Shown one piece after another: positions 4,157 through 22,114 of a stretch of 64,000 nt of DNA. The DNA is from Streptomyces sp. Je 1-369 (lineage in GTDB: Bacteria; Actinomycetota; Actinomycetes; Streptomycetales; Streptomycetaceae). Every line of letters starts with the position of its first letter. Within the stretch, counting starts at the first letter, position 1. The position numbers and the translations under genes are program-made. The stretch lies in assembly GCF_026810505.1 (NCBI RefSeq), contig NZ_CP101750.1, positions 6,133,501 through 6,197,500 of the forward strand. The letters are read 5' to 3'. The notes under the pieces were generated by a model, which was given only the letters and a program-made list of their open reading frames with translations, did not search any database and had not been told where the DNA came from.

Positions 4157-6305
4157 GGCCCGCCCCGGCCAGTAGGTCGCACTCCGCTGCCAGGGGCGCC
4201 AACGTGCCGTCCGGGTCCGGCCGTTCGCGTACCGCTGCCGCCAGGCCGCGGGCTCGGGTCGCGGCCGACTCGTGGCGGCCCAGTACGAACACCAGGCGTG
4301 CGGCCAGGAGTTCCGTGGGGTGCAGGTCCGCGAGGGCCGGGCCGCCGCACGCGCGCAGGGTCTCTATCGCCTGTTCCGCGTGTCCCAGGGCCCTTTCAAA
4401 GGCGCGTACGTTGGCCGCGTACTGCTCGTGGGTTCCCCGCTCGACCAGTGGCGGGCCGTCGGCGTGTTCCATTGCCAGGCGGGCCAACTGGACGTGTGTG
4501 CGGCCCAGTTCCACGTAGAGCTCCGTGCGTTCCGGGTCCTGTTCCGTCTCCTCGGCGTGGTGCCGGTTCGTGTCGAGGGCCTCCGTCATGACCGTGTCGG
4601 CCGCGGCGAGTCCGTGTGCGGTGAGGGTCTCCCAGGCGCGGGCCCGCAGTGCGCGGACCAGGGCGCCGTGTTCGCCGAGCGCGCGCCACAGGTCTTCGGC
4701 CCGCTCGTAGGTCCGTGCGGCCTCCGCCGGTTGTCCGGCCAGGCTCAGCGCCTGCGCCGCCCGCTGGGTGAGGGATGCTTCCTCGTGCCGGGCGTCGGGC
4801 GAGTCGCGGGCGGTTTCCGCCGCGTGCTTGAACTCCGCTGCTGCCAGGGCCGGTTGATGCGTGTGGAGGTAGCTTCGGGCCAGCCAGGTGTGGGCCCGGG
4901 TGCGATCGTCCGCGCTGTGGATGTAGTCCTTGAGGTCGGGCAGTACGGACTCCAGGACCGCGGCGGCCTCCTCGTGGCGGCCCGCCTCGCAGTGCAGCCC
5001 GCCGAGCCGCAGTCGGGCCAGCGCGCTGACGTGCGGGCTTCCCCCGGGGAGCCCCGCGAAGTACGCGGCGTCGGTGAGGAGGCGTTCCGCCCGGGGACCG
5101 GACCCGTCGTCGGAGGGCGTCAGGGACTGCGCGAGTGCCAGGCACAGGCGGGCCCGGTCCAGCGGGGACGACGAGGAGTCGGGGGCGAGGTCGGGGCCGG
5201 GGTCGGGGACGGGTACGTGGGGGCGGGGTGTGGGGGAGGGTGGCCGTGTGCCGCCCAAGGGGAGTTCCGCCATCAGCGGGGCCGCGGCCATGCGGGCCCG
5301 TGCGCGGTCCGAGACAGCCGTCGTACCGTTGCGACGGTCGAAGCGGGCCGCCAGGTCGAGGGCCGACTCCCGGGCGTGGTCGAGGAGTGCCGCCGCGGTC
5401 CACGTGCCGCCCGGCGGTCCCGGCACCGGACGCTCCCCGTGGCCCGTCTCCACCGCGCGGCGCATCAGCAGCGCCGCGCCGACCAGCCACTCCAGGTGGT
5501 CGAGCGGGTCGCCCGTCTCGGTCCAGCGCCGGTCCTGCTCGGCGAGGATCCGCAGGCCGTGCGGTTCGTTGCCCGTGAGTGCGCAGAACTCGACGTGCAG
5601 CCCGATGGCGGGGCCGCACGCCTCGTCGGAGCGGACCAGCCGGTAGCCGCGCAGGTGGTGGGCGCGGGCCTGGTCCGTGCGGCCGGTGCGGACCAGAGGG
5701 AGCAGCGAACGGGCGAAGGTCTCGTGCGGCTCGCGGTGGCAGCCGTGGGTGCCGCTCAGGACGGGCTCCCACCCGTCGAGGGCCGCCCGGTCGTCGCCCA
5801 GGTCCAGCTGACGCAGCCCCTCCGTCGCGTACTCGCAGGCCAGGCAGTCGGCCATGGCGTCCCGCGCGGCCGCCGTCCACGCGGCGTACGCGCGGGCGGC
5901 GCGAGCCGCGTCGCCCACGTGCCGGGCGAGCCTGAACTCGGCTCCGTGCACGGCGCGTTGGGAGTATCCCGCTGTGCGGTAGCCGCGTCGCATTCGGGCC
6001 AGCCACCCCTCGACCTCGGGGAGCGGGACGTCGGGCTGCTGCCGGGCGTCGGCCACCACCCACTTGAACATCCAGTGCAGACGGTGGACGTCGTCCTCGC
6101 CGAAGTCCGCCGGGTCCTCGTCGTACATGCGCAGCAGGCGCAGGAACGGTACGGACGTCCGCGTGCTCTCGCCGCCGAAGCTGTACGAGTGGACGAGGTG
6201 GGTCAGCGCCGCCACGAGCGTCGGGCGGTCACCGGTGGCGGCGGCCTCGTCGGTGAGTGCTTCCGCGTGGGCATGAAGGTTCCTGGTCGCGCCCTGCGGG
6301 CCCAT
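4083..6305 (-). CDS. Tetratricopeptide-like helical repeat protein
   Basis: A 740-residue protein made almost entirely of Ala/Leu/Arg-rich helical pairs of the TPR type, with a Pro-rich break near residues 355-380. There is no signal peptide, membrane segment, nucleotide-binding motif or DNA-binding domain. Similar orphan TPR proteins are frequent in Streptomyces and usually serve as scaffolds, sometimes as the detached arm of a regulator. The gene is convergent with the LAL regulator, and their coding regions overlap by 74 bases at the 3' ends. A functional link with that regulator is only a suggestion. No specific function is recognised. Confidence 0.75.
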   Translation of the reverse strand: MGPQGATRNLHAHAEALTDEAAATGDRPTLVAALTHLVHSYSFGGESTRTSVPFLRLLRMYDEDPADFGEDDVHRLHWMFKWVVADARQQPDVPLPEVEGWLARMRRGYRTAGYSQRAVHGAEFRLARHVGDAARAARAYAAWTAAARDAMADCLACEYATEGLRQLDLGDDRAALDGWEPVLSGTHGCHREPHETFARSLLPLVRTGRTDQARAHHLRGYRLVRSDEACGPAIGLHVEFCALTGNEPHGLRILAEQDRRWTETGDPLDHLEWLVGAALLMRRAVETGHGERPVPGPPGGTWTAAALLDHARESALDLAARFDRRNGTTAVSDRARARMAAAPLMAELPLGGTRPPSPTPRPHVPVPDPGPDLAPDSSSSPLDRARLCLALAQSLTPSDDGSGPRAERLLTDAAYFAGLPGGSPHVSALARLRLGGLHCEAGRHEEAAAVLESVLPDLKDYIHSADDRTRAHTWLARSYLHTHQPALAAAEFKHAAETARDSPDARHEEASLTQRAAQALSLAGQPAEAARTYERAEDLWRALGEHGALVRALRARAWETLTAHGLAAADTVMTEALDTNRHHAEETEQDPERTELYVELGRTHVQLARLAMEHADGPPLVERGTHEQYAANVRAFERALGHAEQAIETLRACGGPALADLHPTELLAARLVFVLGRHESAATRARGLAAAVRERPDPDGTLAPLAAECDLLAGAGPTRPQPEAVPPRTASPATPGPHAR

Positions 6306-6435
6306 GTGCGTTCCTAGTTCGGACGATCCGGGTCGGATGCGGGTACATCCTCGGCCAGCCTTTCAGGACAGGGTCGGCCCCGGCATCCGTAGAACTACGC
6401 AACCGGCTACGCAAACCGGCCGTACTGGCCGACGG

Positions 6436-7092
6436 TCACCCGTACAGCGAGCGCCCCGCCGGGCTGTCGTCCGTGAAGCGTTGGCCCTCGGCGATCTCGT
6501 CGCCGACCACCCACCAGACGGTTTCGTCGTCCTGGAAGGGGAGCGGGTCGATGCGGCTCGTCTCCGCACGGATGCGCTCGACCTCGCGATCCAACCGCTC
6601 AAAACCGGCCTCCTCGCTGCCGCCGTCGCCGCCGCTGTCGTCGCCCTCGTCGTCGAAGGTGAACTCGTCGAGCAGGCGCTGGAACCGGAGAGTGACGTGC
6701 ACGAGGGAGGAGACGTCCGCGTGGAGTTCCCGCGCGGTCTCCTCGTCGGGGTCGAAGGCGTACACCTTGCCGGACACGGGGTCGAGGGCGAGGTGCGCGT
6801 TGAGCAGCCAACCGATGACGGGCCAGGCGCCCGCCTCGTCCGCCGTGCTCTCCATGCCCTCCATGCCCTCGAAGATCTCGACGTCGACGACCTCCCCTAC
6901 GAGCGGCAGCAGCCCGGACTCCTCGTCGGGCTCCCGCAGATACAGCGTCCCCGTGGGAACGCCGACGGCCCGCAGGAGGCGGGCGCCCCGCGTGTCCGCG
7001 GCGGAGGCGGGAAACGCGGACGCGGGCAGCGTCGCGAGCCGGTCCTCGCCGAAGATGCCGGTGACCGCGTCGCGGGTGACGTCGAAAAGCAC
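6436..7092 (-). CDS. SUKH-4-like immunity family protein
   Basis: A 218-residue soluble protein. Its N-terminal region (GEDRLATLPASAFP, RAVGVPTGTLYL) and central part (GKVYAFDPDEE...HADVSSLVHVTLRF) resemble the SUKH-4 group of the SMI1/KNR4-like superfamily. Members are typically immunity proteins of polymorphic toxins, but many stand alone in Streptomyces genomes. An acidic Asp/Gly-rich linker separates a C-terminal piece with WWVVGDEIAEGQRF. No toxin or secretion gene is adjacent: it lies between an orphan TPR gene and a sugar-utilisation operon. Family assignment is by motif feel and is moderately secure; the role is unknown. Confidence 0.65.
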   Translation of the reverse strand: MLFDVTRDAVTGIFGEDRLATLPASAFPASAADTRGARLLRAVGVPTGTLYLREPDEESGLLPLVGEVVDVEIFEGMEGMESTADEAGAWPVIGWLLNAHLALDPVSGKVYAFDPDEETARELHADVSSLVHVTLRFQRLLDEFTFDDEGDDSGGDGGSEEAGFERLDREVERIRAETSRIDPLPFQDDETVWWVVGDEIAEGQRFTDDSPAGRSLYG

Positions 7093-7189: not shown

Positions 7190-8752
7190 TCAGGCCCGCA
7201 GCCAGACCGCGGTGTCCTGCGGCAACCGCCCCCGTGGGGACAAGGGGCCGCTGGCAAGGAGGAGTTCGCTGCCCGCGGGCAGCGCCGCGTCGTCGGGGCC
7301 GAAGTTGACCAGGCAGATCAGTGCGGCGCCGTCCCGCTCCAAGGTGCGCGCGAAGGACAGCACGCCAGGCTCGTCGGTGCGCAGTCGGCGCAGTGGTCCC
7401 GCGTCGGCGAAGGAGCGCCGCAGCCGCAGCGCCGTCCGGTACAGGGAGAGCATCGAGCCCGGATCGTGGGCCTGGAGGTCGGCCGCGTACGCGGACCAGT
7501 CCCTCGGCACCGGCAGCCAGCTCCGCTCCGGGGTGCCGTCCCAGGGCAGCGGCACCCGGCAGCCGTCCCTGCCCGGGTCGACGCCGCCCGACCGGGCGTG
7601 CATCGGGTCCTGGATGCGGTCCCTCGGGATGTCCGCCTCCGGGAGTCCGAGCTCCTCGCCCTGGTAGAGGTAGAGCGAGCCGGGGAGTGCCAGGGTGAGG
7701 AGGGCCGCGGCCCTCGCCCTGCGCGTGCCCAAGGCCAGGTCGGTGGGGACGCCGAACCGTTTGCGTTCGAAGGCGAAACCGGTGTCGTCGGCCCGCCCGT
7801 ACCGGGTGACCGTGCGCGTCACGTCGTGGTTGGCGAGGACCCAGGTGGCGGGCGCGCCGACCGGGGCGTGCGTGGTCAGGGTGAGGTCGATCGACTCCCA
7901 CAGCTGCGCCTGGTCCCACGGCCGGGACAGGAAGTCGAAGTTGAACGCGGTGTGCAGCTCGTCGGGGCGCAGGTAGCGGGCGAAGCGCTCGGCGTCCGGC
8001 AGCCAGATCTCGCCGATCAGCGCGGCGCCGTACTCGTCGGCGATCCGCCGCCAGGAACGGTAGATGTCGTGCAGTTCGGGCTGGTCGTGGAAGGGGTGGG
8101 GGCGGTCCTGGGCCATGGAGGGCAGGCCGTCCGCCTTGGCGAGGAGCGCCGCCGAATCGATGCGTACGCCCGCCGCGCCGCGCTCGAACCAGAAGCGCAG
8201 CACGTCCTCGTGTTCCTGCCGGACCTTCGGGTGGGCCCAGTTGAGGTCGGGCTGCTCGGGCGCGAACAGGTGGAGGTACCACTCGCCGTCGTCCGTGCGG
8301 GACCACGGCACCCCGCCGAACTCGCCCACCCAGTCGTTGGGCGGTTCCGGCGAGTGCGGCCGGAAGTGGAACAGCTCCCGTTCCGGTGATCCCGGCCCCG
8401 CCGCCAGCGCGGCCTTGAACCATTCGTGCTGGTCGGACACGTGGTTCGGCACGACGTCGACGATGCAGCGCAGGCCCAGTTCCCCGGCCTCGGCGATCAG
8501 CTTCTCGGCCTCGCCGAGGCTGCCGAACGCCGGGTCGATGGTGCGGTAGTCCGCGACGTCGTAGCCTCCGTCGGCGAGCGGCGACAGGTACCACGGGGTG
8601 AACCACAGGGCGTCCACGCCCAGGTCGGCCAGATAGGGCAGACGGGCCCGGACACCGGCCAGGTCGCCCGTGCCGTCGCCGTTCCCGTCCGCGAAGGAAC
8701 GGACGTACACCTGATAGATGGCAGCGCTGTGCCACCACTCCGTGCTGGGCAA
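7190..8752 (-). CDS. GH13 alpha-glucosidase (cytoplasmic)
   Basis: A 520-residue glycoside hydrolase family 13 enzyme with no signal peptide. The conserved regions are in order: DVVPNH (99-104), nucleophile Asp199 in GVRIDS, acid/base Glu248 in GEIW, and Asp310 in ANHDV. The N-terminus (WWHSAAIYQVYVRSF) and the overall length match oligo-1,6-glucosidase/alpha-glucosidase subfamilies that cleave short alpha-glucosides from the non-reducing end to glucose. It is the last gene of an operon with a sugar ABC importer, so it likely hydrolyses imported oligosaccharides; given the GH87 neighbour these could be alpha-1,3-linked. The start codon is TTG, with AAAGGA six bases upstream; a short repeat-filled spacer separates it from the permease gene. 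Confidence 0.92.
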   Translation of the reverse strand: MPSTEWWHSAAIYQVYVRSFADGNGDGTGDLAGVRARLPYLADLGVDALWFTPWYLSPLADGGYDVADYRTIDPAFGSLGEAEKLIAEAGELGLRCIVDVVPNHVSDQHEWFKAALAAGPGSPERELFHFRPHSPEPPNDWVGEFGGVPWSRTDDGEWYLHLFAPEQPDLNWAHPKVRQEHEDVLRFWFERGAAGVRIDSAALLAKADGLPSMAQDRPHPFHDQPELHDIYRSWRRIADEYGAALIGEIWLPDAERFARYLRPDELHTAFNFDFLSRPWDQAQLWESIDLTLTTHAPVGAPATWVLANHDVTRTVTRYGRADDTGFAFERKRFGVPTDLALGTRRARAAALLTLALPGSLYLYQGEELGLPEADIPRDRIQDPMHARSGGVDPGRDGCRVPLPWDGTPERSWLPVPRDWSAYAADLQAHDPGSMLSLYRTALRLRRSFADAGPLRRLRTDEPGVLSFARTLERDGAALICLVNFGPDDAALPAGSELLLASGPLSPRGRLPQDTAVWLRA

Positions 8753-8769
8753 GGGGAGTCCTTTCGTAC

Positions 8770-8822
8770 GTGCTCCGAAGACGTGCTGCGAAGACGTGCC
8801 GCGGAGAGCTGCTCCGGAGAGC
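8770..8822. repeat. Four imperfect 13-14 bp tandem repeats
   Basis: Units at 8770-8782 (GTGCTCCGAAGAC), 8783-8795 (GTGCTGCGAAGAC), 8796-8809 and 8810-8822 fill the whole spacer between the permease stop and the ribosome site of the alpha-glucosidase gene. Confidence 0.8.
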
Positions 8823-9704
8823 TCAGCCCTTGAGGCCGCCGGCGCCGAGCCCGGCGATGATGTGGCGCTGGAAGACGAGGAAGAGCGCGACCAGCGGCAG
8901 CGAGGCCATGACGAGCCCGGCCACCAGGCTGTTGAGCGGGGTGTCCTGGGCGACGCGCTGGAGGAACACGCTCAGCGGTTGCCGGGCCGGGTCGGGCAGC
9001 ACGAGCAGCGGCCAGAGGAAGTCCTTCCACGCCGTGACGATGGAGAGGATGGAGACCACGGCGATGATCGGCCGGGCCAGCGGCAGCACCACGCGCCACA
9101 TGGTCGTCACCGGCCCGGCGCCGTCGACCTTCGCCGCGTCGAGGAGCTCGTCGGGGATCCGGTCGAAGAAGTTCTTCAGGATGTAGATGTTGAACGCGTT
9201 GGCGGCCGCGGGCAGCCACACCGCGCTGGGGCTGTTGATCAGGTTGCGGTTGAAGATCGGGACGTCCACGACGGTGAGGTAGACCGGCACGAGGAGCGCG
9301 GTGGCGGGCATCATCAGCGTCACGAGCATCAGGCCGAGCACCACGTTCCCGAACCGCGGGCGCAGCTTCGACAGCGCGTAGGCGGCGGGGATCTGCACCG
9401 CCAGCTGCACCAGCCACGCCCCGCCTGCCAGGACGACCGTGTTGAGGAAGTACCGGGAGAGGTCCATCTCCCGCCACGCCTTCGTGTAGTTCTCGGGGTG
9501 CCAGCTCTCGGGGACGTACGTGGGCGGGTTCTGCGCCAGCTCCGTGGACGACTTCATGGCGCCGGTCGCCGCCCAGTACAGGGGCACGATGAACGCCACC
9601 GTGAACAGGACGAGCGAGAGGGTGAGGACCGACCAGTAGATCAGTCGTCCCTTACGTGTCTTCAGGACGGCGGGGCGCACGAGGGTGCGCGTCGAGGCGG
9701 ACAT
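8823..9704 (-). CDS. Carbohydrate ABC transporter permease (MalG-like)
   Basis: A 293-residue inner-membrane permease of the binding-protein-dependent sugar family. It has an N-terminal membrane segment near residues 24-46 and about six segments in total. The EAA loop is near residue 190 (ELLDAAKVDGAGPVTTMWRVVLP), where the ATPase docks. The ATG at 9702-9704 has AAGGAG six bases upstream; a GTG directly before it is too close to that site. The preceding permease gene stops three bases upstream, so the two are translated together. No ATPase gene is in this operon. A shared MsiK-type ATPase, which serves several sugar importers in Streptomyces, is the likely partner (inference). Confidence 0.92.
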   Translation of the reverse strand: MSASTRTLVRPAVLKTRKGRLIYWSVLTLSLVLFTVAFIVPLYWAATGAMKSSTELAQNPPTYVPESWHPENYTKAWREMDLSRYFLNTVVLAGGAWLVQLAVQIPAAYALSKLRPRFGNVVLGLMLVTLMMPATALLVPVYLTVVDVPIFNRNLINSPSAVWLPAAANAFNIYILKNFFDRIPDELLDAAKVDGAGPVTTMWRVVLPLARPIIAVVSILSIVTAWKDFLWPLLVLPDPARQPLSVFLQRVAQDTPLNSLVAGLVMASLPLVALFLVFQRHIIAGLGAGGLKG

Positions 9705-9707
9705 CAC

Positions 9708-10661
9708 TCACTCCTTGGCGGCGCGGGTGACCCGCAGATAGAGGGCGGAGAAGGCGCCCAGGGCGATCAGGAGCAGCAGGCTCAGTGCGCTGGCGGTGCC
9801 GAAGTCGTTGTAGACGAAGGCGTACCGGTAGACGAGGAACATCACGGTCACCGTCGAGTCCTCGGGGCCGCCGCCCGTCATCACGTACGGCTCGGTGAAC
9901 ACCTGCATCGTCGCGACGATCTGGAGCAGCAGCAGGACGAGCAGCACGAACCGGGTCTGCGGGATCGTGACGTGCCGCAGGCGCTGCCACACACCCGCGC
10001 CGTCCAGCTCCGCCGCCTCGTACAGCTCGCCGGGGATGGTCTGGAGCGCGGCGAGGTAGATGAGGGTGGTGGTGCCCATGTTGGCCCAGGTGGAGACGAT
10101 GACCAGGGAGATCAGCGAGGTGGACGACGAGTCGAGCCATGCCGACGTCGGCAGGTGCAGCGTGCGGAGGATCTCGTTGAAGAGGCCGGGGCCCGGGTCG
10201 TAGAACCACTTCCACATCAGCGCCACGACCACCGGCGGCAGCATGACCGGCAGATAGACGAGGACCCGGAAGTACGCCCGAGCGTGCCGGAACTCGTTGA
10301 GGAGCACCGCGGTCAGGAACGGCACGGCGAAGCCGAGGACCAGCGCGTACAGGGTGAACAGGCCGGTGTTCCGCCAGGCGGTGAGGAACAGCGGGTCGTT
10401 GAAGAGCTTCTCGAAGTTGCTGGTGCCGTTCCAGGTGTTGCCGGTGGCGAAGTTGACGTCCTGGAAGCCGAGGAGGACGTTGCGGACGATCGGCCACCAC
10501 GAGAACAGCGCGAAGATCACCACGGCCGCGCTCAGGAACCCGTACGCCGTCATGTGCTCGCGCAGCGCGCGGCGGCGGCCCGCCGGTGATCTGCGGGGTG
10601 CGGGGGAGGGGGGCGGCGCGACGGCCGTGTGCCGGGTCGGGGTCTTCAGCGTCACGCTCAT
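9708..10661 (-). CDS. Carbohydrate ABC transporter permease (MalF-like)
   Basis: A 317-residue permease with a Pro-rich cytoplasmic N-terminus (about 35 residues) and six predicted membrane segments starting AYGFLSAAVVIFALFSWWPIV. The EAA loop is near residue 215 (ELYEAAELDGAGVWQRLRHVTIP). It is the first membrane component of the sugar importer. Its ATG overlaps the stop of the binding-protein gene (TGATG), so translation is coupled. The reading frame stays open far upstream in the binding-protein gene, but that is a shadow; the real start is ATG 10659-10661. Confidence 0.92.
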   Translation of the reverse strand: MSVTLKTPTRHTAVAPPPSPAPRRSPAGRRRALREHMTAYGFLSAAVVIFALFSWWPIVRNVLLGFQDVNFATGNTWNGTSNFEKLFNDPLFLTAWRNTGLFTLYALVLGFAVPFLTAVLLNEFRHARAYFRVLVYLPVMLPPVVVALMWKWFYDPGPGLFNEILRTLHLPTSAWLDSSSTSLISLVIVSTWANMGTTTLIYLAALQTIPGELYEAAELDGAGVWQRLRHVTIPQTRFVLLVLLLLQIVATMQVFTEPYVMTGGGPEDSTVTVMFLVYRYAFVYNDFGTASALSLLLLIALGAFSALYLRVTRAAKE

Positions 10662-12028
10662 CAGGAGGCGTCGTAGATCGCGTTGACCTTGTTCTCGGCG
10701 TCGTCGAGCAGGGCGTCGATGTCGGCGTCCTCCTTGGTGAGGACGGACTGCATCGCCGAGTCGAGTACCGCGTAGACCTCCTGGGCCTTCGGCGGTTCGA
10801 TCACGCCGGGCACCTTGGGCGCGGAGTCCATGAACGCCTGGTAGTTGCCGGTCGGCATGTTCGCCTTGTCCTGCTTGGCCTTCTCGATCCGGTCGCGGAC
10901 CGCGCCCTCGAAGACGTCGGGGACGGTCGGCATCGGGATGCCGACGGGGAGCTTCGCGTCGGCGTAGTCGGCGACGTTCTTCTCGATGACGTCGGGGTTG
11001 AGGTAGCGCCACTGGATCCACTTGACGCCGGCCTTGATCTTCGCCGGGGACGCCTTGGGGTTGAACATGTAGCCCTCGCCGCCGAGTAGCGTGGACTTCG
11101 CGTCCGGTACGGGGGCGAGCGCGTAGTCCGCGTACTTCCCGCCGAACTGCTTGGCGATGACGGTGATGTTGTCGGCGGCCGCGACGTACATGCCGAGCTT
11201 TCCGGAGCCCATCATCCGCTGGACGTCCTCGACCTGGAGCAGCTGCTTGCTGCCCATGGAGTCGTCCTTCCAGCGCATGTCGTAGAGGTCCTGGAAGGTG
11301 GCCTTGCCCTCCGGCGTGTTGAACGCGGCCTTCCACTTGCCGTCGCTCTCGGCCGCGATCCGGCCGCCGCGCGAGTACAGCTCGGCCGTGTAGTGCCAGC
11401 CGCCCTGGTTGTTCTTGGAGAAGTCGGCGTAGCCCACGGTGTTGTCGCCGAGCGCGGCGATCTTCCTGGCGGCCCTGCGGACGTCCGCCCAGGTCTTCGG
11501 TGCCTGGTCGGGGTCGAGGCCGGCCTTCTCGAACAGGGCGCGGTTGTAGATGAGTCCCATCGAGTAGTTCGACGTCGGCAGGCCGTACTGGCGGCCCTCG
11601 TCGTTCTGGAAGATCTTCATCAGCGGGTCCTGGAGGTCGCCGCGGCGCGGCATGTCCTTCACGGCGTCCGTGATGTCCGCGGCCTGCTTCTTCTCGATCA
11701 GGGACCGGGTGTCGGTGAAGTAGACGTAGAAGACGTCCTCCAGCTTGCCGCCCGCGAGCTTCGCGTTGAAGGTCTTCGGGTCCATGAAGCCCTCGTGGGG
11801 CACGATGTCGATGTCCGGGTTGGCCTTCTCGAACTGCTGCACGTGCTTGTCGTAGAGCTTGCGCTCGAAGGCCTGGGTCTTGGGCGGCTGCCCGTTGACG
11901 TCGAGCTTCACCTTGCCGCCGGAATCCGATTCGGCGCCGTCGCTGCTGGTGCCGCACGCGGTGAGCGCGGCCAGTGCGAGAACGGTCACGGTGGCGAGCG
12001 AGAGTGTTCGGCTGCTCGTGGATGACAT
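10661..12028 (-). CDS. Sugar ABC transporter substrate-binding lipoprotein
   Basis: A 455-residue extracellular solute-binding protein (family 1). The signal peptide MSSTSSRTLSLATVTVLALA ends in the lipobox LTAC, so the mature protein is anchored to the membrane by Cys. The remainder has the family 1 features (FEKANPDIDIVPHEGF near 70, GWHYTAELYSRGG near 190, C-terminal AENKVNAIYDAS). The ATG at 12026-12028 was chosen over an in-frame upstream start at 12142 because GGAGGGGG lies seven bases before it and the signal peptide begins there. It is the first gene of the operon binding protein-permease-permease-alpha-glucosidase. The position opposite a GH87 enzyme suggests nigero-oligosaccharides as ligand. 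Confidence 0.92.
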   Translation of the reverse strand: MSSTSSRTLSLATVTVLALAALTACGTSSDGAESDSGGKVKLDVNGQPPKTQAFERKLYDKHVQQFEKANPDIDIVPHEGFMDPKTFNAKLAGGKLEDVFYVYFTDTRSLIEKKQAADITDAVKDMPRRGDLQDPLMKIFQNDEGRQYGLPTSNYSMGLIYNRALFEKAGLDPDQAPKTWADVRRAARKIAALGDNTVGYADFSKNNQGGWHYTAELYSRGGRIAAESDGKWKAAFNTPEGKATFQDLYDMRWKDDSMGSKQLLQVEDVQRMMGSGKLGMYVAAADNITVIAKQFGGKYADYALAPVPDAKSTLLGGEGYMFNPKASPAKIKAGVKWIQWRYLNPDVIEKNVADYADAKLPVGIPMPTVPDVFEGAVRDRIEKAKQDKANMPTGNYQAFMDSAPKVPGVIEPPKAQEVYAVLDSAMQSVLTKEDADIDALLDDAENKVNAIYDAS

Positions 12029-12091
12029 CGGGAGACCCCCTCCGGGTCGTGCTGTACGTCCGTGCTGCGGGTGCCGGGCGGTGCGGCGCAT

Positions 12092-12121
12092 ACATAACCA
12101 TCGACGCAACCGGGCGCGCAA
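12092..12121 (-). promoter_or_regulatory. Putative promoter of the sugar operon
   Basis: On the minus strand, TTGCGC (12116-12121) and TTATGT (12092-12097) are spaced by 18 bases, giving a sigma-70-like promoter about 64 bases before the binding-protein start. Confidence 0.45.
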
Positions 12122-12154
12122 GAACTTGAACGAAGATTGCAAAAATCGGATTGC
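12118..12154. promoter_or_regulatory. Putative LacI-type operator cluster
   Basis: GCAAG (12118-12122, the complement of CTTGC) overlaps the -35 element. Two GATTGC copies at 12135 and 12149 follow, 14 bases apart. TTGC-containing repeats of this sort resemble the MalR-type sites described in Streptomyces and the CTTGC repeats before the LacI gene at 16629. The match is suggestive only. Confidence 0.4.
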
Positions 12155-12287
12155 CGCGTGGAGGGTGGCCCGCTGTGAGGTGTCACGACTTCCGTGTTGG
12201 CTGTAGTCAACTCGACAGTTCTCTGCAATTCTCCCACTGCTTCACGCCAAAAGCTGCGTGCTCGACAGTGAGGGAGCCCCACACGTC

Positions 12288-15200
12288 ATGGAACGCATCA
12301 GAGACGCACAGGCCCGAAGACCACACAGGTGGTGGCGGCCCTTCGCCACCGCTCTCACCGCGGCGCTGCTCCTCCTCGGCCTGCCCGCCCTGCCCGCCGC
12401 CGCGGCGGGCGGCCCCGACCTGGCCGCGGGCAAGCCCGCCAAGGCGAGCGGCGCCAAGGCGGAGTACGGCGCAGCCCACATCACCGACGGCGACGCGGGC
12501 ACGTACTGGGAGAGTGCGTCGTCCGACCTGCCGCAGTGGGTGCAGGTCGACCTCGGCCGCGGCACCCGCGTCGACGAGGTCGTCCTCAAGCTGCCCCCGG
12601 CCTGGGAGGCCCGCAAGCAGACCCTGTCCGTGCAGGGCAGCACCGACGGCAGCGGCTTCAGCACCCTCGCCGCGTCCGGGGCCCGCTCCTTCGAGCCCGG
12701 CTCCGCCAACACGGTGACGATCCGCTTCCCGTCCGCGCAGACCCGTTTCGTACGGGTGCACATCACCGCCAACACCGGCTGGCCCGCCGCCCAGCTCGCC
12801 GAACTGCGGGTGCACGCGGCCGCCGACGCCTCGGTGAACCTGGCGCTCGGCAAGACCCTCAAGGCGAGCGGCCACACCCAGGACTACACCGCCGCCCACG
12901 CCAACGACGGCAACCGCGCCACCTACTGGGAGAGCGAGAACAGCAAGCTCCCGCAGTGGATCCAGGCCGACCTCGGCAGCTCCGCACGGATCGACGAGGT
13001 GGTCCTGCGCGTGCCCGAGGAATGGGGCGACCGCAGCCAGACCCTCAAGGTCCAGGGCAGCACCGACGGCTCGGACTTCACCGACCTGACCGCGTCGAAG
13101 GAGTACGCCTTCACCAAGGCGTCGGAACACTCCGCGACCCTCGCCCTCGACACCGTCACCACCCGCTACGTCCGCGTCCTGATCACCGCCAACACCGCGC
13201 AGCCCGCGGGCCAGCTGTCCGAGCTGGAGATCTACGGCCCGGCGGGCGGCGACACCCAGGCCCCCACCGCCCCGAAGAACCTCGCCCTCACCGAACCGGA
13301 GCCCGGCCGCGTCAAGCTCGCCTGGGACGCCTCCGACGACGACAAGGGCGTGACCGCGTACGACGTCTACGCCAACGGGGAGCTGCTCACCAGCGTCGCC
13401 GGTGACGTGCGCACGTACACCGACACGCGCCCCGCGAGCGCCACCGTCACGTACTACGTGCGGGCCCGCGACGCGGTCGGCAACGCGTCACCGAACAGCA
13501 ACACCGTGACCCGCAAGGGCGAATCGGGCGACACCCAGGCACCGACCGCCCCCACGAACCTCACCCTCAGCCAGCCCTCCGGCGGTGAGATCAAGCTGGC
13601 GTGGGGCGCGTCGGACGACAACGTGAAGGTCACGGCGTACGACGTGTACGCGGACGGCAAGCTCCTGAAGTCCGTGGCCGACGACGTGACGACGTACACC
13701 GACACCCGTTCCGCGAGCGTCACCGTCTCCTACACGGTCCGGGCCCGCGACGCGGCAGGGAACGTCTCGGCGCACAGCAACACCGTGACCCGGCCCGGCG
13801 GCGGCAACAAGAACCTCGCCGAGTCCAAGCCGATCAGCGCCTCCTCGGTGATCCACACCTTCGTCGCCGAGAACGCCAACGACGGACAGACGTCCACCTA
13901 CTGGGAGGGTGCCGCAGGCAGCTACCCCAACACCCTGACCGTCGAGCTCGGCGCCAACGCCGACGTCGACGCGGTCGTGCTCAAGCTCAACCCGGACGCC
14001 GGGTGGGGCGCCCGCACCCAGAAGGTGCAGGTACTCGGCCGGGAGCAGAAGGCCGCCGACTTCACCTCGCTGGTGGGGGAGAAGGAGTACTCCTTCAGCC
14101 CGTCCGGCAACCAGAACACCGTCACCATCCCGGTGTCGGCCAAGGTCGCCGACGTGCGCCTGCGGTTCACCGCGAACAGCGGCGCCACGGCCGGGCAGGT
14201 CGCCGAGTTCCAGGTCATGGGCGCCCCGGCGGCCAACCCCGACCTGGAGATCACCAAACTGTCGTACGCCCCCGAGGCGCCGACCGAGACCGACGAGCTG
14301 ACCCTGACCGCGACCGTGCGCAACCGCGGCACCGAGGCGTCGACGGCCACCGACGCCGTCTTCCGGCTCGGCGGCGACAAGGCGGGCACGGCGGCCGTGG
14401 GCGCGCTCGGCGCGGGCGAGTCGACGACGGTGAGCGCCAGGACCGGCGCACGCGACGCGGGCTCGTACCCCTTCAGCGCGGAGGTGGACACCAAGAACGA
14501 GGTGATCGAACAGGACGAGGGCAACAACACCTACACAGGGCCGAGCCCGCTCGTGGTCAAGCCGGTCGACTCCTCCGACCTGGTGGCGTCCCCGGTGAGC
14601 TGGACGCCGTCCGCACCCTCCAAGGGCAAAGAGGTCACCTTCAGTGTCGCCGTCAAGAACCAGGGCACCAAGGCGTCCGCGTCCGGCGCTCACGGCATCA
14701 AGCTCATCCTCCAGGATGACAAGGGCGCCACACTGAAGACCCTGACCGGCGAGCACAACGGTGTGATCGGCGCGGGCGACACCACGGCGCCGGTCAAGCT
14801 CGGCACCTGGACCGCGGGGGACGGCCGCTTCACGATCCGCACGGTCATCGCCGACGACGCCAACGAACTGCCGGTCAAGCGCGAGAACAACACCACTACG
14901 CACTCCCTGTTCGTCGGCCGCGGCGCCGACATGCCCTACGACACCTACGAGGCGGAGGACGGCGTCCTCGCGGGCGGCGCGAAGACCGTCGGCCCCAACC
15001 GCACCGTCGGCGACCTGGCGGGTGAGGCGTCCGGTCGCAAGGCCGTCACGCTGAACTCGACCGGCGAGTCCGTGGAGTTCACCGCCAAGCAGGACACCAA
15101 CACCCTGGTCACCCGCTTCTCCATCCCGGACGCCCCCGGCGGCGGAGGCACCCAGGCGACCCTGAACGTCTACGTGGACGGCACCTTCCGCAAGGCCATC

Positions 15201-16565
15201 GACCTCACCTCCAAGTACGCCTGGCTGTACGGGGACGAGGCCTCGCCGGGCAACTCGCCGGGAGCCGGTCCTGCCCGGCACATCTACGACGAGGCGCACG
15301 TCGTGCTCGACGGGACGGTGAAGGCGGGCAGCAAGATCAAGCTGCAGAAGGACAGCGCCAACACCTCCCGCTACGCCATCGACTTCATCGACCTGGAACA
15401 GGTCGCGGCGAAGGCCAACCCCGACCCGGCCGCCTACACCGTGCCCGCCGGATTCACCCACCAGGACGTGCAGAACGCCCTGGACAAGGTCCGCATGGAC
15501 ACCAGCGGCAAGCTGACGGGCGTCTACCTGCCGCCCGGCGACTACGAGACGAGCAACAAGTTCCAGGTCTACGGAAAGGCCGTCCAGGTCGTCGGCGCCG
15601 GGCCCTGGTTCACCCGCTTCCACGCGCCGAGGAGCCAGGACAACACGGACGTCGGATTCCGTGCCGAGGCGAGCGCCAAGGGCTCGTCCTTCGCGGGCTT
15701 CGCCTACTTCGGCAACTACACGTCCCGCATCGACGGGCCCGGCAAGGTCTTCGACTTCCAGAACGTCTCCGACATCACCATCGACGACATCTGGAACGAG
15801 CACATGGTGTGCCTCTACTGGGGCGCCAACACGGACCGCATGACCATCAAGAACTCGCGGATCCGCAACATGTTCGCCGACGGCGTCAACATGACCAACG
15901 GCAGCACGGACAACCTGGTCGCCAACAACGAGGCGCGGGCCACGGGCGACGACAGCTTCGCCCTCTTCTCCGCCATCGACGCGGGCGGCGCGGACATGAA
16001 GAACAACGTATACGAGAACCTGACCTCGCTCCTGACCTGGCGCGCGGCGGGCTTCGCGGTCTACGGCGGCTACAACAACACCTTCCGCAACAGCCGCATC
16101 GCCGACACCCTCGTCTACTCCGGCATCACCATCTCCTCGCTGGACTTCGGCTACCCGATGAACGGCTTCGGCAAGGATCCGACCACGTTCGAGAACATCA
16201 CGGTCGAGCGGGCCGGCGGCACCTTCTGGAAGGGCCAGGACTTCCCGGCCATCTGGGCGTTCTCCGCGTCGAAGGTCTTCCAGGGGATCCGCGTGAACAA
16301 CGTCGACATCGTCGACCCGACGTTCCACGGGGTGATGTTCCAGACGAAGTACACGGGCAGCCAACCCGAGTTCCCGGTCAAGGACACGGTCTTCACCGAC
16401 GTGTCGATCACGGGCGCGCCGATCGGCATCTACGTCAACGAGATGCCGGAGGCGGGCCAGGGACCCGCCGTCGGTGAAGCGACGTTCATACGGCCCAAGT
16501 TGAGCGGCAACGGGCAGGACATCAAGAACGACACGTCCACGTTCGAGCTCACCATGCAGCCCTGA
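12288..16565 (+). CDS. Secreted multidomain GH87-type alpha-1,3-glucanase
   Basis: A 1425-residue exported protein with a signal peptide ending near residue 40. Domains in order (approximate): two F5/8C discoidin-like sugar-binding domains (42-175, 182-318), two fibronectin type III domains (321-412, 414-505), a third F5/8C-like domain (507-648), two CARDB-like domains (650-760, 762-875), a CBM6/35-like domain (884-1040) and a right-handed beta-helix catalytic domain (1048-1425). The helix carries FADGVNMTNGST and ATGDDSFALFS, typical of GH87 mutanase/mycodextranase; Asp1198, Asp1221 and Asp1222 are the likely catalytic acids. The family cuts alpha-1,3-glucan of fungal walls. ATG 12288 is preceded by GAGGGAG. 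The gene is divergent from the importer operon. GH family is inferred from fold motifs; another beta-helix polysaccharidase is the alternative. Confidence 0.85.
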   Translation: MERIRDAQARRPHRWWRPFATALTAALLLLGLPALPAAAAGGPDLAAGKPAKASGAKAEYGAAHITDGDAGTYWESASSDLPQWVQVDLGRGTRVDEVVLKLPPAWEARKQTLSVQGSTDGSGFSTLAASGARSFEPGSANTVTIRFPSAQTRFVRVHITANTGWPAAQLAELRVHAAADASVNLALGKTLKASGHTQDYTAAHANDGNRATYWESENSKLPQWIQADLGSSARIDEVVLRVPEEWGDRSQTLKVQGSTDGSDFTDLTASKEYAFTKASEHSATLALDTVTTRYVRVLITANTAQPAGQLSELEIYGPAGGDTQAPTAPKNLALTEPEPGRVKLAWDASDDDKGVTAYDVYANGELLTSVAGDVRTYTDTRPASATVTYYVRARDAVGNASPNSNTVTRKGESGDTQAPTAPTNLTLSQPSGGEIKLAWGASDDNVKVTAYDVYADGKLLKSVADDVTTYTDTRSASVTVSYTVRARDAAGNVSAHSNTVTRPGGGNKNLAESKPISASSVIHTFVAENANDGQTSTYWEGAAGSYPNTLTVELGANADVDAVVLKLNPDAGWGARTQKVQVLGREQKAADFTSLVGEKEYSFSPSGNQNTVTIPVSAKVADVRLRFTANSGATAGQVAEFQVMGAPAANPDLEITKLSYAPEAPTETDELTLTATVRNRGTEASTATDAVFRLGGDKAGTAAVGALGAGESTTVSARTGARDAGSYPFSAEVDTKNEVIEQDEGNNTYTGPSPLVVKPVDSSDLVASPVSWTPSAPSKGKEVTFSVAVKNQGTKASASGAHGIKLILQDDKGATLKTLTGEHNGVIGAGDTTAPVKLGTWTAGDGRFTIRTVIADDANELPVKRENNTTTHSLFVGRGADMPYDTYEAEDGVLAGGAKTVGPNRTVGDLAGEASGRKAVTLNSTGESVEFTAKQDTNTLVTRFSIPDAPGGGGTQATLNVYVDGTFRKAIDLTSKYAWLYGDEASPGNSPGAGPARHIYDEAHVVLDGTVKAGSKIKLQKDSANTSRYAIDFIDLEQVAAKANPDPAAYTVPAGFTHQDVQNALDKVRMDTSGKLTGVYLPPGDYETSNKFQVYGKAVQVVGAGPWFTRFHAPRSQDNTDVGFRAEASAKGSSFAGFAYFGNYTSRIDGPGKVFDFQNVSDITIDDIWNEHMVCLYWGANTDRMTIKNSRIRNMFADGVNMTNGSTDNLVANNEARATGDDSFALFSAIDAGGADMKNNVYENLTSLLTWRAAGFAVYGGYNNTFRNSRIADTLVYSGITISSLDFGYPMNGFGKDPTTFENITVERAGGTFWKGQDFPAIWAFSASKVFQGIRVNNVDIVDPTFHGVMFQTKYTGSQPEFPVKDTVFTDVSITGAPIGIYVNEMPEAGQGPAVGEATFIRPKLSGNGQDIKNDTSTFELTMQP

Positions 16566-16590
16566 CCCGCGGAGGAGACATATACGTACA

Positions 16591-16617
16591 CGGCCGTCCG
16601 GATTCCGGGCGGCCGTT
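16591..16617 (+). terminator. Terminator after the GH87 gene
   Basis: A 12-bp stem (left arm ACGGCCGTCCGG, right arm CCGGGCGGCCGT, one G-T pair) with an ATT loop, starting 26 bases past the stop and followed by TTAC. Confidence 0.8.
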
Positions 16618-16628
16618 TACGTAACTGG

Positions 16629-16655
16629 CTTGCAGGCCTTGCGCTATTCTTGCGG
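16629..16655 (+). promoter_or_regulatory. Triple CTTGC direct repeat before the LacI gene
   Basis: CTTGCAG (16629-16635), CTTGCGC (16638-16644) and CTTGCGG (16649-16655) end three bases before the ATG. There is no Shine-Dalgarno sequence, so the repeats occupy the promoter/leader itself and are probable autoregulatory operator sites. Confidence 0.5.
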
Positions 16656-16657
16656 CC

Positions 16658-17671
16658 ATGACGCGACGACTTGCTCAAGTTGCGAAGAAGGTGGGGGTCA
16701 GCGAGGCCACGGTCAGCCGTGTCCTCAACGACAAGCCCGGTGTCTCCGCCGCCACCCGACAGTCCGTGCTGACGGCCCTGGACGTCCTCGGCTACGAGCG
16801 GCCGACGCAACTGCGCGGCGAGCGCGCCCGGCTCGTCGGCCTCGTCCTGCCCGAGCTCCAGAACCCGATCTTCCCCGCGTTCGCCGAGGTCATCGGCGGC
16901 GCCCTCGCACAGCAGGGCCTCACACCGGTGCTGTGCACGCAGACCAGGGGCGGCGTCTCCGAGGCCGACTACGTGGACCTCCTGCTCCAGCAGCACGTCT
17001 CCGGGGTCGTCTTCGCGGGCGGCCTCTTCGCGGAGGCCGACGCGCCGCACGACCACTACCGGCGCCTCGCCGAGCGGGACATCCCGGTCGTCCTGATCAA
17101 CGCGTCGATCGAAGGCATCGACTTCCCCTGCGTCGCGTGCGACGACGCCGTCGCCGTCGAACAGGCGTGGCGCCACCTCGCCTCGCTCGGTCACGAACGG
17201 ATCGGCCTCGTCCTCGGTCCGGCCGACCACGTGCCCTCGCGCCGCAAGCTCGCGGCCGCCCGCGACGTCGCCGCGGCCGCGGGCATGGAGCTGCCCGACG
17301 CGTTCGTCGAGCGGTCGATCTTCTCCCTGGAGGGCGGCCAGGCGGCCGCCGCGCGCCTCATGGAGCGCGGCGTCACCGGCATCGTCTGCGGCAGCGACCC
17401 GCTCGCCCTCGGCGCCATCAGGGCGGCCCGCCGCAAGGGCCTCTCCGTCCCCGGCGACGTCTCCGTCGTCGGCTACGACGACTCGGCGTTCATGACCTGC
17501 ACCGAGCCGCCCCTTTCGACCGTGCGCCAGCCCATCGAGGCGATGGGCCGCGCGGCGGTCGACCTGCTGTCCGCCCAGATCCGCGGCACCCAGCCGCACC
17601 CCGGCGAGCTGCTCTTCGAGCCGGAACTCGTCGTCCGCGGCTCGACGGCTCAGCTCCTCAGCACTCGATGA
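16658..17671 (+). CDS. LacI family transcriptional regulator
   Basis: A 337-residue repressor. The N-terminal helix-turn-helix ([24 protein letters not shown], residues 2-25) is followed by a hinge helix and a periplasmic-binding-protein-like effector domain ([20 protein letters not shown] ... [22 protein letters not shown]). Its place beside the GH87 gene and sugar importer makes it the probable local repressor, released by an imported sugar. The ATG has no ribosome site and sits just behind a triple CTTGC repeat, so the mRNA may be leaderless. The 3' end overlaps the convergent sdaA gene by 14 bases. MalR-like regulators of maltose uptake belong to the same subfamily, so a maltose-type ligand is the alternative. 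Confidence 0.92.
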
Positions 17672-19028
17672 TGTTCACCGCGAGACCGCCCCGCGCGGTC
17701 TCCTTGTACTTGACGCTCATGTCGGCGCCCGTCTCCTTCATCGTCTTGATGACCTTGTCGAGGGACACCTTGTGGGAGCCGTCGCCGCGCATCGCCATCT
17801 TCGCGGCGGTGACGGCCTTGACCGCCGCCATGCCGTTGCGCTCGATGCACGGGATCTGAACGAGGCCGCCGACCGGGTCGCAGGTCAGGCCCAGGTTGTG
17901 CTCCATGCCGATCTCGGCGGCGTTCTCGACCTTGGAGGGGGAGCCGCCCATGACCTCGGCGAGCGCGCCCGCCGCCATCGAGCAGGCGGAGCCGACCTCG
18001 CCCTGGCAGCCGACCTCGGCGCCGGAGATCGAGGCGTTCTCCTTGAAGAGCATGCCGATCGCGCCGGCCGCCAGCAGGAAGCGGACCACGCCGTCCTCGT
18101 CGGCGCCGGGCACGAAGTTCATGTAGTAGTGCAGGACGGCGGGGATGATGCCCGCCGCGCCGTTCGTGGGCGCGGTGACCACGCGGCCGCCCGCGGCGTT
18201 CTCCTCGTTCACCGCCATCGCGTAGAGCGTGATCCACTCCATGGCGCGGGCCTGCGGGTCGCCCTCGGCGCGCAGCTGCCTGGCCGAGTTCGCGGCGCGG
18301 CGGCGCACCTTGAGGCCGCCCGGCAGGATGCCCTCGCGGGACATGCCGCGCGACACGCAGGACTGCATGACGCCCCAGATGTCGAGCAGACCCGCGCGGA
18401 TCTCGTCCTCGGTGCGCCACGCCTTCTCGTTCTCCAGCATCAGCGCGGAGATGGACAGGCCCGTCTCCTCCGTGAGGCGGAGCAGCTCGTCGCCGGTGCG
18501 GAAGGGGTGCCGCAGGACGGTGTCGTCCGGCACGATCGGGTTCTCGCCCGCCACGGCGTCCTCGTCCACGACGAAACCGCCGCCTACGGAGTAGTACGTC
18601 TTCTCCAGGACGAGGCCGCCCTCGCGGTCGTACGCGAAGATCGTCATGCCGTTGGCGTGGTACGGCAGGGCCTTGCGGCGGTGCAGGATCAGGTCCTCGT
18701 CGAAATCGAAGTCGATCTCGTGCATGCCGAGCAGGTTGATGCGGCCGCCGCTCTTGATCTCCTCGACGCGGTCGTCGGCGCCCTCCACGTTCACCGTGCG
18801 GGGCGACTCGCCCTCCAGGCCGAGCAGGACGGCCTTCGGCGTGCCGTGGCCGTGGCCGGTCGCGCCGAGCGAGCCGTACAGCTCCGCCCGTATCGCCGTC
18901 GTGTGGGCCATCAGGCCCTCGTTCTTGAGGCGGCTCGCGAACATGCGGGCCGCGCGCATGGGACCGACCGTGTGGGAGCTGGACGGGCCGATGCCGATCG
19001 AGAACAGGTCGAAGACCGAGATGGCCAC
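17658..19028 (-). CDS. sdaA: L-serine dehydratase (iron-sulfur type)
   Basis: A 456-residue single-chain L-serine ammonia-lyase that converts L-serine to pyruvate and ammonia in the cytoplasm. The N-terminal beta domain begins [21 protein letters not shown]. The C-terminal alpha domain carries the conserved cysteines of the oxygen-sensitive [4Fe-4S] cluster ([46 protein letters not shown]). The start is GTG 19026-19028 with GGAG five bases upstream; the frame stays open further upstream but family members begin here. It is the last gene in line after gcvT-gcvH-glyA, with a 178-base gap holding a hairpin and AT-rich repeats, so it may have its own promoter. With glyA it links glycine and serine to pyruvate. 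Confidence 0.95.
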
Positions 19029-19107
19029 GAGAACTCCAATGGTGGTTGGTAGACGCCGTTGTCTGCCGGGGTGATGCAGAAGTACAAGGCGGTGCGGGAC
19101 GTGGTGC

Positions 19108-19145
19108 GGGGCACCTCGCTCACTCTCCAGTGTGCGGGGTGCCCC
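19108..19145 (-). terminator. Hairpin between glyA and sdaA
   Basis: Perfect 8-bp arms GGGGCACC and GGTGCCCC enclose a smaller CACT/AGTG stem. It lies 60 bases past the glyA stop and 80 bases before the sdaA start, so it could end the gcv-glyA transcript or act as a leader element of sdaA. Confidence 0.5.
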
Positions 19146-19158
19146 GATGTTTCGTACG

Positions 19159-19200
19159 TATGAACAACGGCATACGAACAAAAGCGTACAAACAGAGGGT
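19159..19200. repeat. Three 14-bp AT-rich tandem repeats in the sdaA upstream region
   Basis: TATGAACAACGGCA, TACGAACAAAAGCG and TACAAACAGAGGGT follow each other without gaps, seven bases after the glyA stop. The low GC and 14-base period stand out against the surroundings. Possible operator or promoter element. Confidence 0.6.
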
Positions 19201-19206
19201 ACGGAA

Positions 19207-20469
19207 CTACTTCAGGCCGGGGTACAAGGGGTGCTTGTCGGCCAGAGCGGTCACACGGGCCTTGAGGGACGCCGCGTCGAAGTCCGGCTTCAGGGCCTCG
19301 GCGATGATGTCGGCGACCTCGCGGAAGTCGTCCGCCTCGAAGCCGCGCGTGGCGAGCGCCGGGGTGCCGATCCGCAGGCCCGAGGTGACCATCGGGGGGC
19401 GCGGGTCGTTCGGGACCGCGTTGCGGTTGACCGTGATGCCGACTTCGTGGAGGCGGTCCTCGGCCTGCTGGCCGTCGAGCTCGGAGTTGCGCAGGTCCAC
19501 CAGGACCAGGTGCACGTCCGTGCCGCCGGAGAGGACGTCGACGCCGACGGCCTTCGCGTCGTCCTGCACCAGGCGCTCGGCCAGGATGCGGGCGCCGTCC
19601 AGGGTGCGCTGCTGGCGCTCCTTGAAGTCGTCCGACGCGGCGACCTTGAAGGAGACGGCCTTGGCGGCGATGACGTGCTCCAGCGGGCCGCCCTGGAAGC
19701 CGGGGAAGACCGCGGAGTTCAGCTTCTTCGCGAACTCCTTGCTGCGGGCCAGGATGATGCCGCCGCGCGGGCCGCCGAGCGTCTTGTGCGTGGTGGAGGT
19801 GACCACGTCCGCGTACGGCACCGGGTTCGGGTGCAGACCCGCGGCGACCAGACCGGCGAAGTGCGCCATGTCGACCCAGAGCTTCGCGCCGACCTCGTCG
19901 GCGATCCGGCGGAACTCGGCGAAGTCCAGGTGGCGCGGGTAGGCCGACCAGCCCGCGATGATCACCTTCGGGTTGTTCTCCTTGGCGAGGCGCTCGACCT
20001 CGGCCATGTCGACCAGACCGGCCTCGTCCACGTGGTAGGCGACCACGTTGAACTGCTTGCCGGAGAAGTTCAGGCGCATGCCGTGCGTGAGGTGGCCGCC
20101 GTGCGCGAGGTCAAGGCCGAGGATCGTGTCGCCGGGCTGGGCGATCGCGAAGAGGGCGGCCTGGTTGGCGGAGGCGCCGGAGTGCGGCTGCACGTTCGCG
20201 TACTCGGCGCCGAACAGGTCCTTGACCCGGTCGATCGCGATCTGCTCGGCGACGTCGACGTGCTCGCAGCCGCCGTAGTAGCGGCGGCCGGGGTAGCCCT
20301 CGGCGTACTTGTTGGTCAGGACCGAGCCCTGGGCCTCCATGACCGCGACCGGAGCGAAGTTCTCCGAGGCGATCATTTCCAGGGTCGACTGCTGGCGGTG
20401 GACCTCGGCGTCGACGGCGGCGGCGACGTCCGGGTCCAGCTCGTGGAGGGGGGTGTTCAGAAGCGACAT
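19207..20469 (-). CDS. glyA: Serine hydroxymethyltransferase
   Basis: A 420-residue PLP enzyme that interconverts serine plus tetrahydrofolate and glycine plus 5,10-methylene-tetrahydrofolate. Recognised by MIASENF near residue 35, [44 protein letters not shown] and the PLP-lysine motif [14 protein letters not shown] near 225. The length is normal. ATG 20467-20469 is the family start; an upstream in-frame start at 20574 is a shadow reaching back toward gcvH. It follows gcvH by 23 bases in the same operon, where the glycine cleavage enzymes and GlyA together turn glycine into serine and one-carbon units. It should be induced by glycine through the riboswitch before gcvT. Confidence 0.96.
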
Positions 20470-20492
20470 CACACGATCCCTATCGGTATGGG

Positions 20493-20870
20493 TCAGCCGG
20501 CGGTGAATGCGGTGTACTCGTCGGCGGACATCAGGTCGTCCGGCTCGCCCGAGATACGAACCTTGAACAGCCAACCGCCCTCGAACGGGGCGGAGTTGAC
20601 CAGCGACGGGTCCTCCACGACGTCCTGGTTGGCGGCGACGATCTCGCCGGTCACCGGGGCGTAGAGGTCGCTGACCGACTTGGTCGACTCCAGCTCGCCG
20701 CAGGACTCGCCCGCGGTCACCGTGTCACCGACCTCGGGGAGCTGCGCGAAGACGACGTCACCGAGCGCGTTGGCCGCGTGCTCGGTGATGCCGACGGTCG
20801 CCACGCCGTCCTCGGTGGCCGAGAGCCACTCGTGCTCCTTGCTGTAACGAAGCTGCTGGGGGTTGCTCAT
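20493..20870 (-). CDS. gcvH: Glycine cleavage system H protein
   Basis: A 125-residue lipoyl carrier of the glycine cleavage complex; it shuttles the aminomethyl group from the P protein to the T protein. The lipoylation site is the Lys in [17 protein letters not shown] near residue 65, and the N-terminus ([10 protein letters not shown]) is typical. AGGAG lies ten bases before ATG 20868-20870. The gene lies 76 bases after gcvT and just before glyA. The P protein gene (gcvP) is not in this window; in Streptomyces it is commonly elsewhere. Confidence 0.96.
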
Positions 20871-20946
20871 GACCTGAATTCTCCTGTACGCGGGTGGGTG
20901 CTGCGGAACGGGAAGGATGTGCGGGGGGTCACTTCTGACGCGGCAG

Positions 20947-22080: not shown

Positions 22081-22114
22081 GAAGGGAACTCCCAGGGCAT
22101 GACGGGCGAGGTCG

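Follow-up and report, generated by a model that had tools for sequence, protein, structure and literature searches.

A set of six genes at positions 7190-17671 of the 64,000-nucleotide stretch of Streptomyces sp. Je 1-369 analysed here (hereafter the window) very probably encodes a substrate-induced system for the utilisation of alpha-1,3-glucan, a component of fungal walls and dental plaque. The set comprises a secreted enzyme of glycoside hydrolase family 87 (GH87), a sugar-binding lipoprotein, two ATP-binding cassette (ABC) permeases, a GH13 enzyme and a LacI-type regulator, and its attribution builds on gene identities, catalytic residues, co-occurrence, linkage and motif enrichment, all read from sequence. 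Reading frames and Pfam matches placed all six genes in the order and divergent orientation given by the original prediction, with the lipoprotein, permease F, permease G and GH13 genes transcribed in that order from the minus strand and the GH87 and LacI genes lying on the plus strand; the frame of permease F overlaps the stop of the binding-protein gene by one base. The locus had also been called complete, which holds for these six genes but not for an ATPase gene, none being present within the locus. Its features are as follows.

7190..8752, minus strand: GH13_30-type alpha-glucosidase starting at TTG; visual inspection shows no obvious signal peptide; PF00128, 306.5 bits
8823..9707, minus strand: ABC permease 2/G (MalG/UgpE type); PF00528, 62.5 bits; NCBIfam UgpE/MalG matches below their cut-offs
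9708..10661, minus strand: ABC permease 1/F (MalF/UgpA type); PF00528, 68.9 bits
10661..12028, minus strand: sugar-binding lipoprotein (SBP_bac_1) with lipobox LTAC
12117..12122: CGCAAG, a MalR-type core site in the divergent region between the binding-protein and GH87 genes
12219..12233: conserved box TTCTCTGCAATTCTC, some 55-70 bases upstream of the GH87 start; its reverse strand holds TTGCAG, near the MalR core CTTGCAG
12288..16565, plus strand: secreted multidomain GH87 alpha-1,3-glucanase (predicted), 1425 amino acids; PDB 6K0M, CatAgl_D1, CatAgl_D2
14928..15404, plus strand: CatAgl_D1, galactose-binding-like part of the catalytic unit; PF22815, residues 880-1038, 261.7 bits
15462..16505, plus strand: CatAgl_D2, right-handed beta-helix; PF22816, 370.1 bits
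16629..16654, plus strand: putative operator just before the LacI start, with consecutive CTTGCA (16629), CTTGCG (16638) and CTTGCG (16649)
16658..17671, plus strand: LacI/MalR-type regulator; PF00356 and PF13377

Judged by its sequence, the large secreted protein is a GH87 enzyme and a predicted alpha-1,3-glucanase, the sole PF22816 match in the genome (a single contig of 8.82 Mb). Besides its catalytic unit it contains three F5/8-C (discoidin) stretches, an fn3 domain and two CARDB stretches according to Pfam, discoidin-type accessory domains being also carried by Agl-KA. The catalytic part (residues 869-1408) found its best PDB match in Agl-FH1 (6K0M; E 8.8e-129) and matched Agl-KA (5ZRU) at E 3.2e-49, with PF22815 and PF22816 both far above their cut-offs. 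Within CatAgl_D2, D1198 (15879) and D1221-D1222 (15948-15953) align with the same motifs of 6K0M, their spacing of 23+1 being that of D1067, D1090 and D1091 in Agl-KA, which the accessible part of its description names as important for catalysis (PMC6814745). The predicted family assignment was upheld by the Agl-FH1 match, both catalytic parts and the retained aspartate triad, and the outcome named beforehand as its possible refutation, a beta-helix from a different glycoside hydrolase or lyase family, did not emerge from the structure-database and Pfam comparisons. The same D1 and D2 unit with its triad characterises Agl-FH1, Agl-KA and Agl-ST (7C7D), the studies of which, in their available parts, cover the enzyme alone and mention neither importer nor regulator. 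As for products, the accessible portions of the respective reports list mainly tetrasaccharide and some disaccharide for Agl-KA (PMC6814745), and glucose, nigerose and nigerotriose for Agl-EK14 (PMC10696023).

The tie between importer and GH87 is beyond chance. PF22816, the LacI protein and the binding protein (E<=1e-40 for the last) each served as query against the same 199 Streptomyces genomes, GH87 and binding protein occurring together in 113, GH87 alone in three (G048, G102, G167), binding protein alone in four and neither in 79, counting G179 among the first and G075 and G149 among the third through a 38-39% form. The four genomes with a binding protein and no PF22816 match (G034, G075, G149, G172) may have lost GH87 or may use another endo-enzyme. 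A LacI match of at least 78% identity, with the same 10-residue recognition helix in every case, was present in 116 of the 199 genomes, and its distribution against GH87 was equally close (113 with both, three and three with one only, 80 with neither). In a second family, that of Kibdelosporangium banguiense G200 (placed in Pseudonocardiaceae from the label on a different Kibdelosporangium), 34 of 120 genomes held both GH87 and binding protein, one GH87 only (G326), none the binding protein only and 85 neither. Concordance, with the two genes both present or both absent, therefore reached 192 of 199 genomes in Streptomyces and 119 of 120 in the second family, and 155 of the 319 genomes carried at least one of them, 147 of these carrying both; 14 control genomes gave no PF22816 match. 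Fisher tests returned 2e-46 and 4e-29, respectively; related genomes are not independent, and all that is read from the figures is that the association is not a loose one.

Linkage was counted from tblastn and profile searches, since the in-house gene caller behind the gene maps is crude and misses genes. Strong GH87 matches provided 60 loci of at most 19.5 kb each (from 60 of the 68 other genomes with such a match), of which 32 contained the binding protein, accompanied in 31 by both permeases and the GH13 gene, and 19 contained all six genes; the stretch lacked the binding protein in the other 28, and 27 of those 28 genomes carry it elsewhere. Among 35 loci fetched through the binding protein or LacI, the binding protein was found in 33, joined by F, G and GH13 in 29, with GH87 within about 10 kb in 22 and all six genes in 12. 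A scan of named genomes queried with 15 aligned binding proteins extended the set to Streptomyces, Amycolatopsis, Lentzea, Saccharothrix, Kibdelosporangium and others; in the best 80 loci (more exist), F, G and GH13 were present in 79, LacI as well (at least 65% identity) in 75, GH87 within about 10 kb in 38 and all six genes in 34. Of the 42 best-80 loci without a nearby GH87, 34 genomes were tested, and GH87 was found elsewhere in all 34. Two titles in this collection look wrong: L192 (titled Rhodococcus rhodnii NRRL B-16535; 12.4 Mb) falls in the family of Kibdelosporangium G200, and the GH13 sequence of L208 (titled Nocardia sp. NRRL S-836) lies inside the Lentzea group. Some genomes are represented twice (e.g. 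L074/L147, L110/L218).

Gene order varied among loci, with LacI first, GH87 first, divergent arrangements and two GH87 genes in tandem, so that plain synteny is no explanation for the association. The layout of the window, in which GH87 and LacI are transcribed divergently from the importer genes, recurs in G081 (L075) and G123/S. longisporoflavus (L074/L147). At locus L109, where LacI, binding-protein and GH13 genes are also found, the GH87 protein scores 1048 bits against 7C7D, a solved Streptomyces alpha-1,3-glucanase; its neighbour is a C-type binding protein, and the same kind of set therefore also adjoins an orthologue of an alpha-1,3-glucanase characterised from Streptomyces.

Binding proteins fell into groups by identity to that of the window: A (74-100%), C/P (49-62%), B (40-48%) and D (37-39%). 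Type A stood beside Agl-FH1- or Agl-KA-like GH87 in 10 of 10 neighbour pairs and type B in 42 of 46, whereas C/P stood beside low-scoring (7C7D-like or CBM35-type) GH87 in 54 of 61, the classes being set by a home-made profile score, strong GH87 having been the criterion for the first loci, a choice in favour of that class, and the pairs omitting two of D type and 53 binding-protein matches with no GH87 within 10.5 kb. In the second family, weak GH87 matches occur some 5 kb away from D-type binding proteins (e.g. G223:C21:154571 and 159741). Further lineages adjoining GH87, at 52-56% (LacI only 50-56%) and 37-39% identity, were seen at L118, L119, L120, L122, G223:C21, G339:C2, G224:C10 and G319:C112, and probably represent additional parallel systems; the GH87 proteins of L120 and L121, the two scanned, have CBM35/CBM6 domains.

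The regulator is, on its helix-turn-helix domain and the CTTGC core repeats at its predicted target promoters, a MalR-type LacI protein. In S. lividans, according to the available part of the report, the MalR core site is CTTGCAG, arranged as inverted and direct repeat (PMC5526262). Upstream of the LacI, binding-protein and GH87 genes of the sets, CTTGCR on either strand reached 13.9, 4.4 and 4.1 per kb, against 0.79 per kb in 282 control intergenic stretches and about 1.0 in shuffles; for the best 80 named loci the corresponding values were 13.9, 4.7 and 1.3, with a control of 0.63. The box GAGTTGCAGAG, with at most one mismatch, preceded 34 of 63 Agl-FH1-like GH87 genes, 2 of 14 Agl-KA-like genes and none of 17 others (shuffles 0.15, 0.1 and 0.05). 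Near-perfect co-occurrence, repeated linkage and the common CTTGCR operator motif support the importer and GH13 enzyme as predicted functional partners of GH87, in agreement with the original prediction. A separate mal-like cluster of the genome (L128) has CTTGC-type sites near its own LacI gene, and this likeness to the MalR core makes cross-talk with MalR possible. Two further observations concern these sites: three consecutive CTTGCA at G000:C1:5384615-5384638 (about position 4116 of L257) form the only other triple CTTGCR run among 32 genome hits, and a conserved box GCGCGAGATATTGCG, with no good match in the window, lies about 95-130 bases before type-B binding-protein starts (e.g. L035, L037, L046).

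The SBP_bac_1 lipoprotein and two BPD_transp_1 permeases make up an importer of the CUT1 type. A profile search with OB_MalK located two ATPases elsewhere in the genome, one of the UgpC subfamily (466 bits, cut-off 432) and another scoring best as PotA; the anticipated sharing of an MsiK-type ATPase fits the former, a UgpC/MsiK-type gene whose product would serve this importer. The binding protein is 22% identical to S. scabiei MalE (8ART), which sets it apart from MalE, and its nearest structures bind several alpha- and beta-glucosides, the cyclic maltosyl-maltose (CMM) binding protein CMMBP (7BVT) of Arthrobacter globiformis being among the closest folds; nigero-oligosaccharides are our best guess for its ligand. 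The GH13 enzyme, from its closest family and its retained D/E/D residues, is assigned as a GH13_30-type alpha-glucosidase. Its closest solved relative is CmmB (8YIE/8YIF), a GH13_30 alpha-glucosidase with 46-47% identity, also from the Arthrobacter CMM pathway, the next matches being at 33%. Asp199, Glu248 and Asp310, which we take to be the catalytic residues from the general GH13 pattern, are invariant across 18 aligned relatives. In a midpoint-rooted tree of 66 of the 133 collected sequences, 63 of the 64 from these loci were separated from the two nearest paralogues of the genome itself (56% identity) with fork support of 98/94; L119_8, whose set has a more distant LacI, grouped with the paralogues on a long branch, and the branch of L121_3 was also long.

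Taken together, these data suggest a mechanism in which anchoring on the substrate, the sugar transported, the linkage split by GH13, repression with induction, and the use of MsiK are the parts that we infer. The secreted GH87 enzyme would probably be anchored to insoluble glucan through its discoidin-type domains, cutting fungal-wall alpha-1,3-glucan or mutan into short nigero-oligosaccharides, which the lipoprotein would capture at the cell surface and the two permeases would import with the shared MsiK-type ATPase. In the cytoplasm, the GH13_30 alpha-glucosidase would split them to glucose. The LacI/MalR-type regulator would repress its own gene and both divergent transcription units via CTTGCR sites, releasing the DNA once the oligosaccharide is present. 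The transported ligand and the GH13 linkage, as predicted here, are the weakest steps.

It is on these steps that other explanations bear. The locus might act on another substrate, given that GH87 also includes mycodextranases, as stated in the accessible part of a recent report (PMC13421300), that the GH13 enzyme has CmmB as its nearest relative, and that GH87 enzymes of several subgroups stand beside such sets, paired with different binding-protein clades; however, Agl-FH1, the best match of the window enzyme in a comparison that included no mycodextranase sequence, is a solved alpha-1,3-glucanase, and a GH87 enzyme from another of the sets is orthologous to 7C7D; this explanation is rather unlikely. 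Far less probable still is the reading of importer and GH13 enzyme as a common system for maltodextrin or isomalto-oligosaccharides, with GH87 as no more than a neighbour: the MalR-type operator motif and the MalEFG/AglA-like gene make-up would suit it, but the genome has the separate cluster L128 with its own LacI (53%) and GH13 (52%), the binding protein shares little with MalE (8ART, 22%), and of the 155 genomes with binding protein or GH87, 147 have both.

A nigero-oligosaccharide importer might also be served by another intracellular enzyme, such as a GH31 encoded elsewhere, performing most of the alpha-1,3 hydrolysis. The genome has three GH31 matches (one partial), a bacterial GH31_u1 enzyme is described as strictly alpha-1,3 in the available text of its report (PMC9061262), and the open-access titles and abstract openings covered showed no GH13 enzyme with an evident preference for alpha-1,3 bonds. 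Against this, GH13 accompanies the importer in 79 of the best 80 named loci and in 31 of the 32 strong-GH87 loci with a binding protein, and Pfam detected no GH31 among 14 window proteins (six of the locus and eight around it); we regard such a division of labour as improbable. The substrate-induced alpha-1,3-glucan system is accordingly preferred. A bolder extension of it is offered tentatively, and may well go too far: the genes would form a dedicated actinobacterial alpha-1,3-glucan regulon, in which the importer would accompany GH87 almost obligatorily, even with the genes far apart, the GH13_30 enzyme would be a specialised alpha-1,3-glucosidase, and binding-protein clades would split with GH87 subgroups, each GH87 product pattern having its own importer. 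One result weighs against a wider regulon, the paired operator pattern occurring less often across the genome than the backward pattern used as control.

Several known systems resemble the locus in part. The layout of Streptomyces malR-malEFG-aglA, partly a matter of general knowledge, likewise combines a LacI regulator with CTTGC-type sites, a CUT1 importer without its own ATPase and a GH13 alpha-glucosidase, but it lacks GH87, its MalE differs from the window binding protein as noted above, and a mal-like cluster is present separately in the same genome. The CMM pathway of A. globiformis also joins an extracellular enzyme, an importer and intracellular GH13 enzymes; its substrate, however, is an alpha-1,4/1,6-linked cyclic maltosyl-maltose made by a GH13 enzyme, and the accessible account describes the seven-gene cluster without GH87. 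The nearest prior art found lies in Lachnoclostridium phytofermentans, which belongs to another phylum than Streptomyces. Its cluster of GH87, a GH65 nigerose phosphorylase, a GH31_u1 alpha-1,3-glucosidase, an ABC transporter and LacI, as given in the available part of the report (PMC9061262), similarly places GH87 near an ABC importer and LacI in a proposed route for alpha-1,3 oligosaccharides, whereas its intracellular step is phosphorolysis with GH31 and that of the window would fall to GH13; neither GH65 phosphorylase nor GH31_u1 was among the same 14 window proteins. A predicted polysaccharide utilisation locus of Prevotella melaninogenica also groups GH87 with other hydrolases, a regulator and uptake genes, but relies on TonB/SusD uptake and GH97/GH99, no ABC importer being listed in the accessible text (PMC13421300). 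Streptomyces strains growing on mutan have been described, the word 'transport' being absent from the main text of the report as available (PMC11475409). An actinobacterial importer linked to GH87 was found described nowhere in the open-access literature covered, outside which most subscription papers lie, and neither was a widespread actinobacterial alpha-1,3-glucan regulon. The original prediction that such import is little described is roughly right, with the reservation that the clostridial cluster is already in print.

Directly beyond LacI, the minus strand (17658-22125) encodes serine dehydratase, serine hydroxymethyltransferase and glycine-cleavage H and T proteins. The opposite flank (1043-7092) encodes a large AAA_16/LuxR protein, a TPR protein and a SUKH-4 immunity-type protein.

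GH87 enzymes have been studied as tools, and to our knowledge the natural bacterial uptake and use of their products are hardly known. With a specific binding protein that accompanies GH87 in 147 of 319 genomes and, in the loci read, has permeases, GH13 and LacI as neighbours, the question of how these products are taken up becomes testable.

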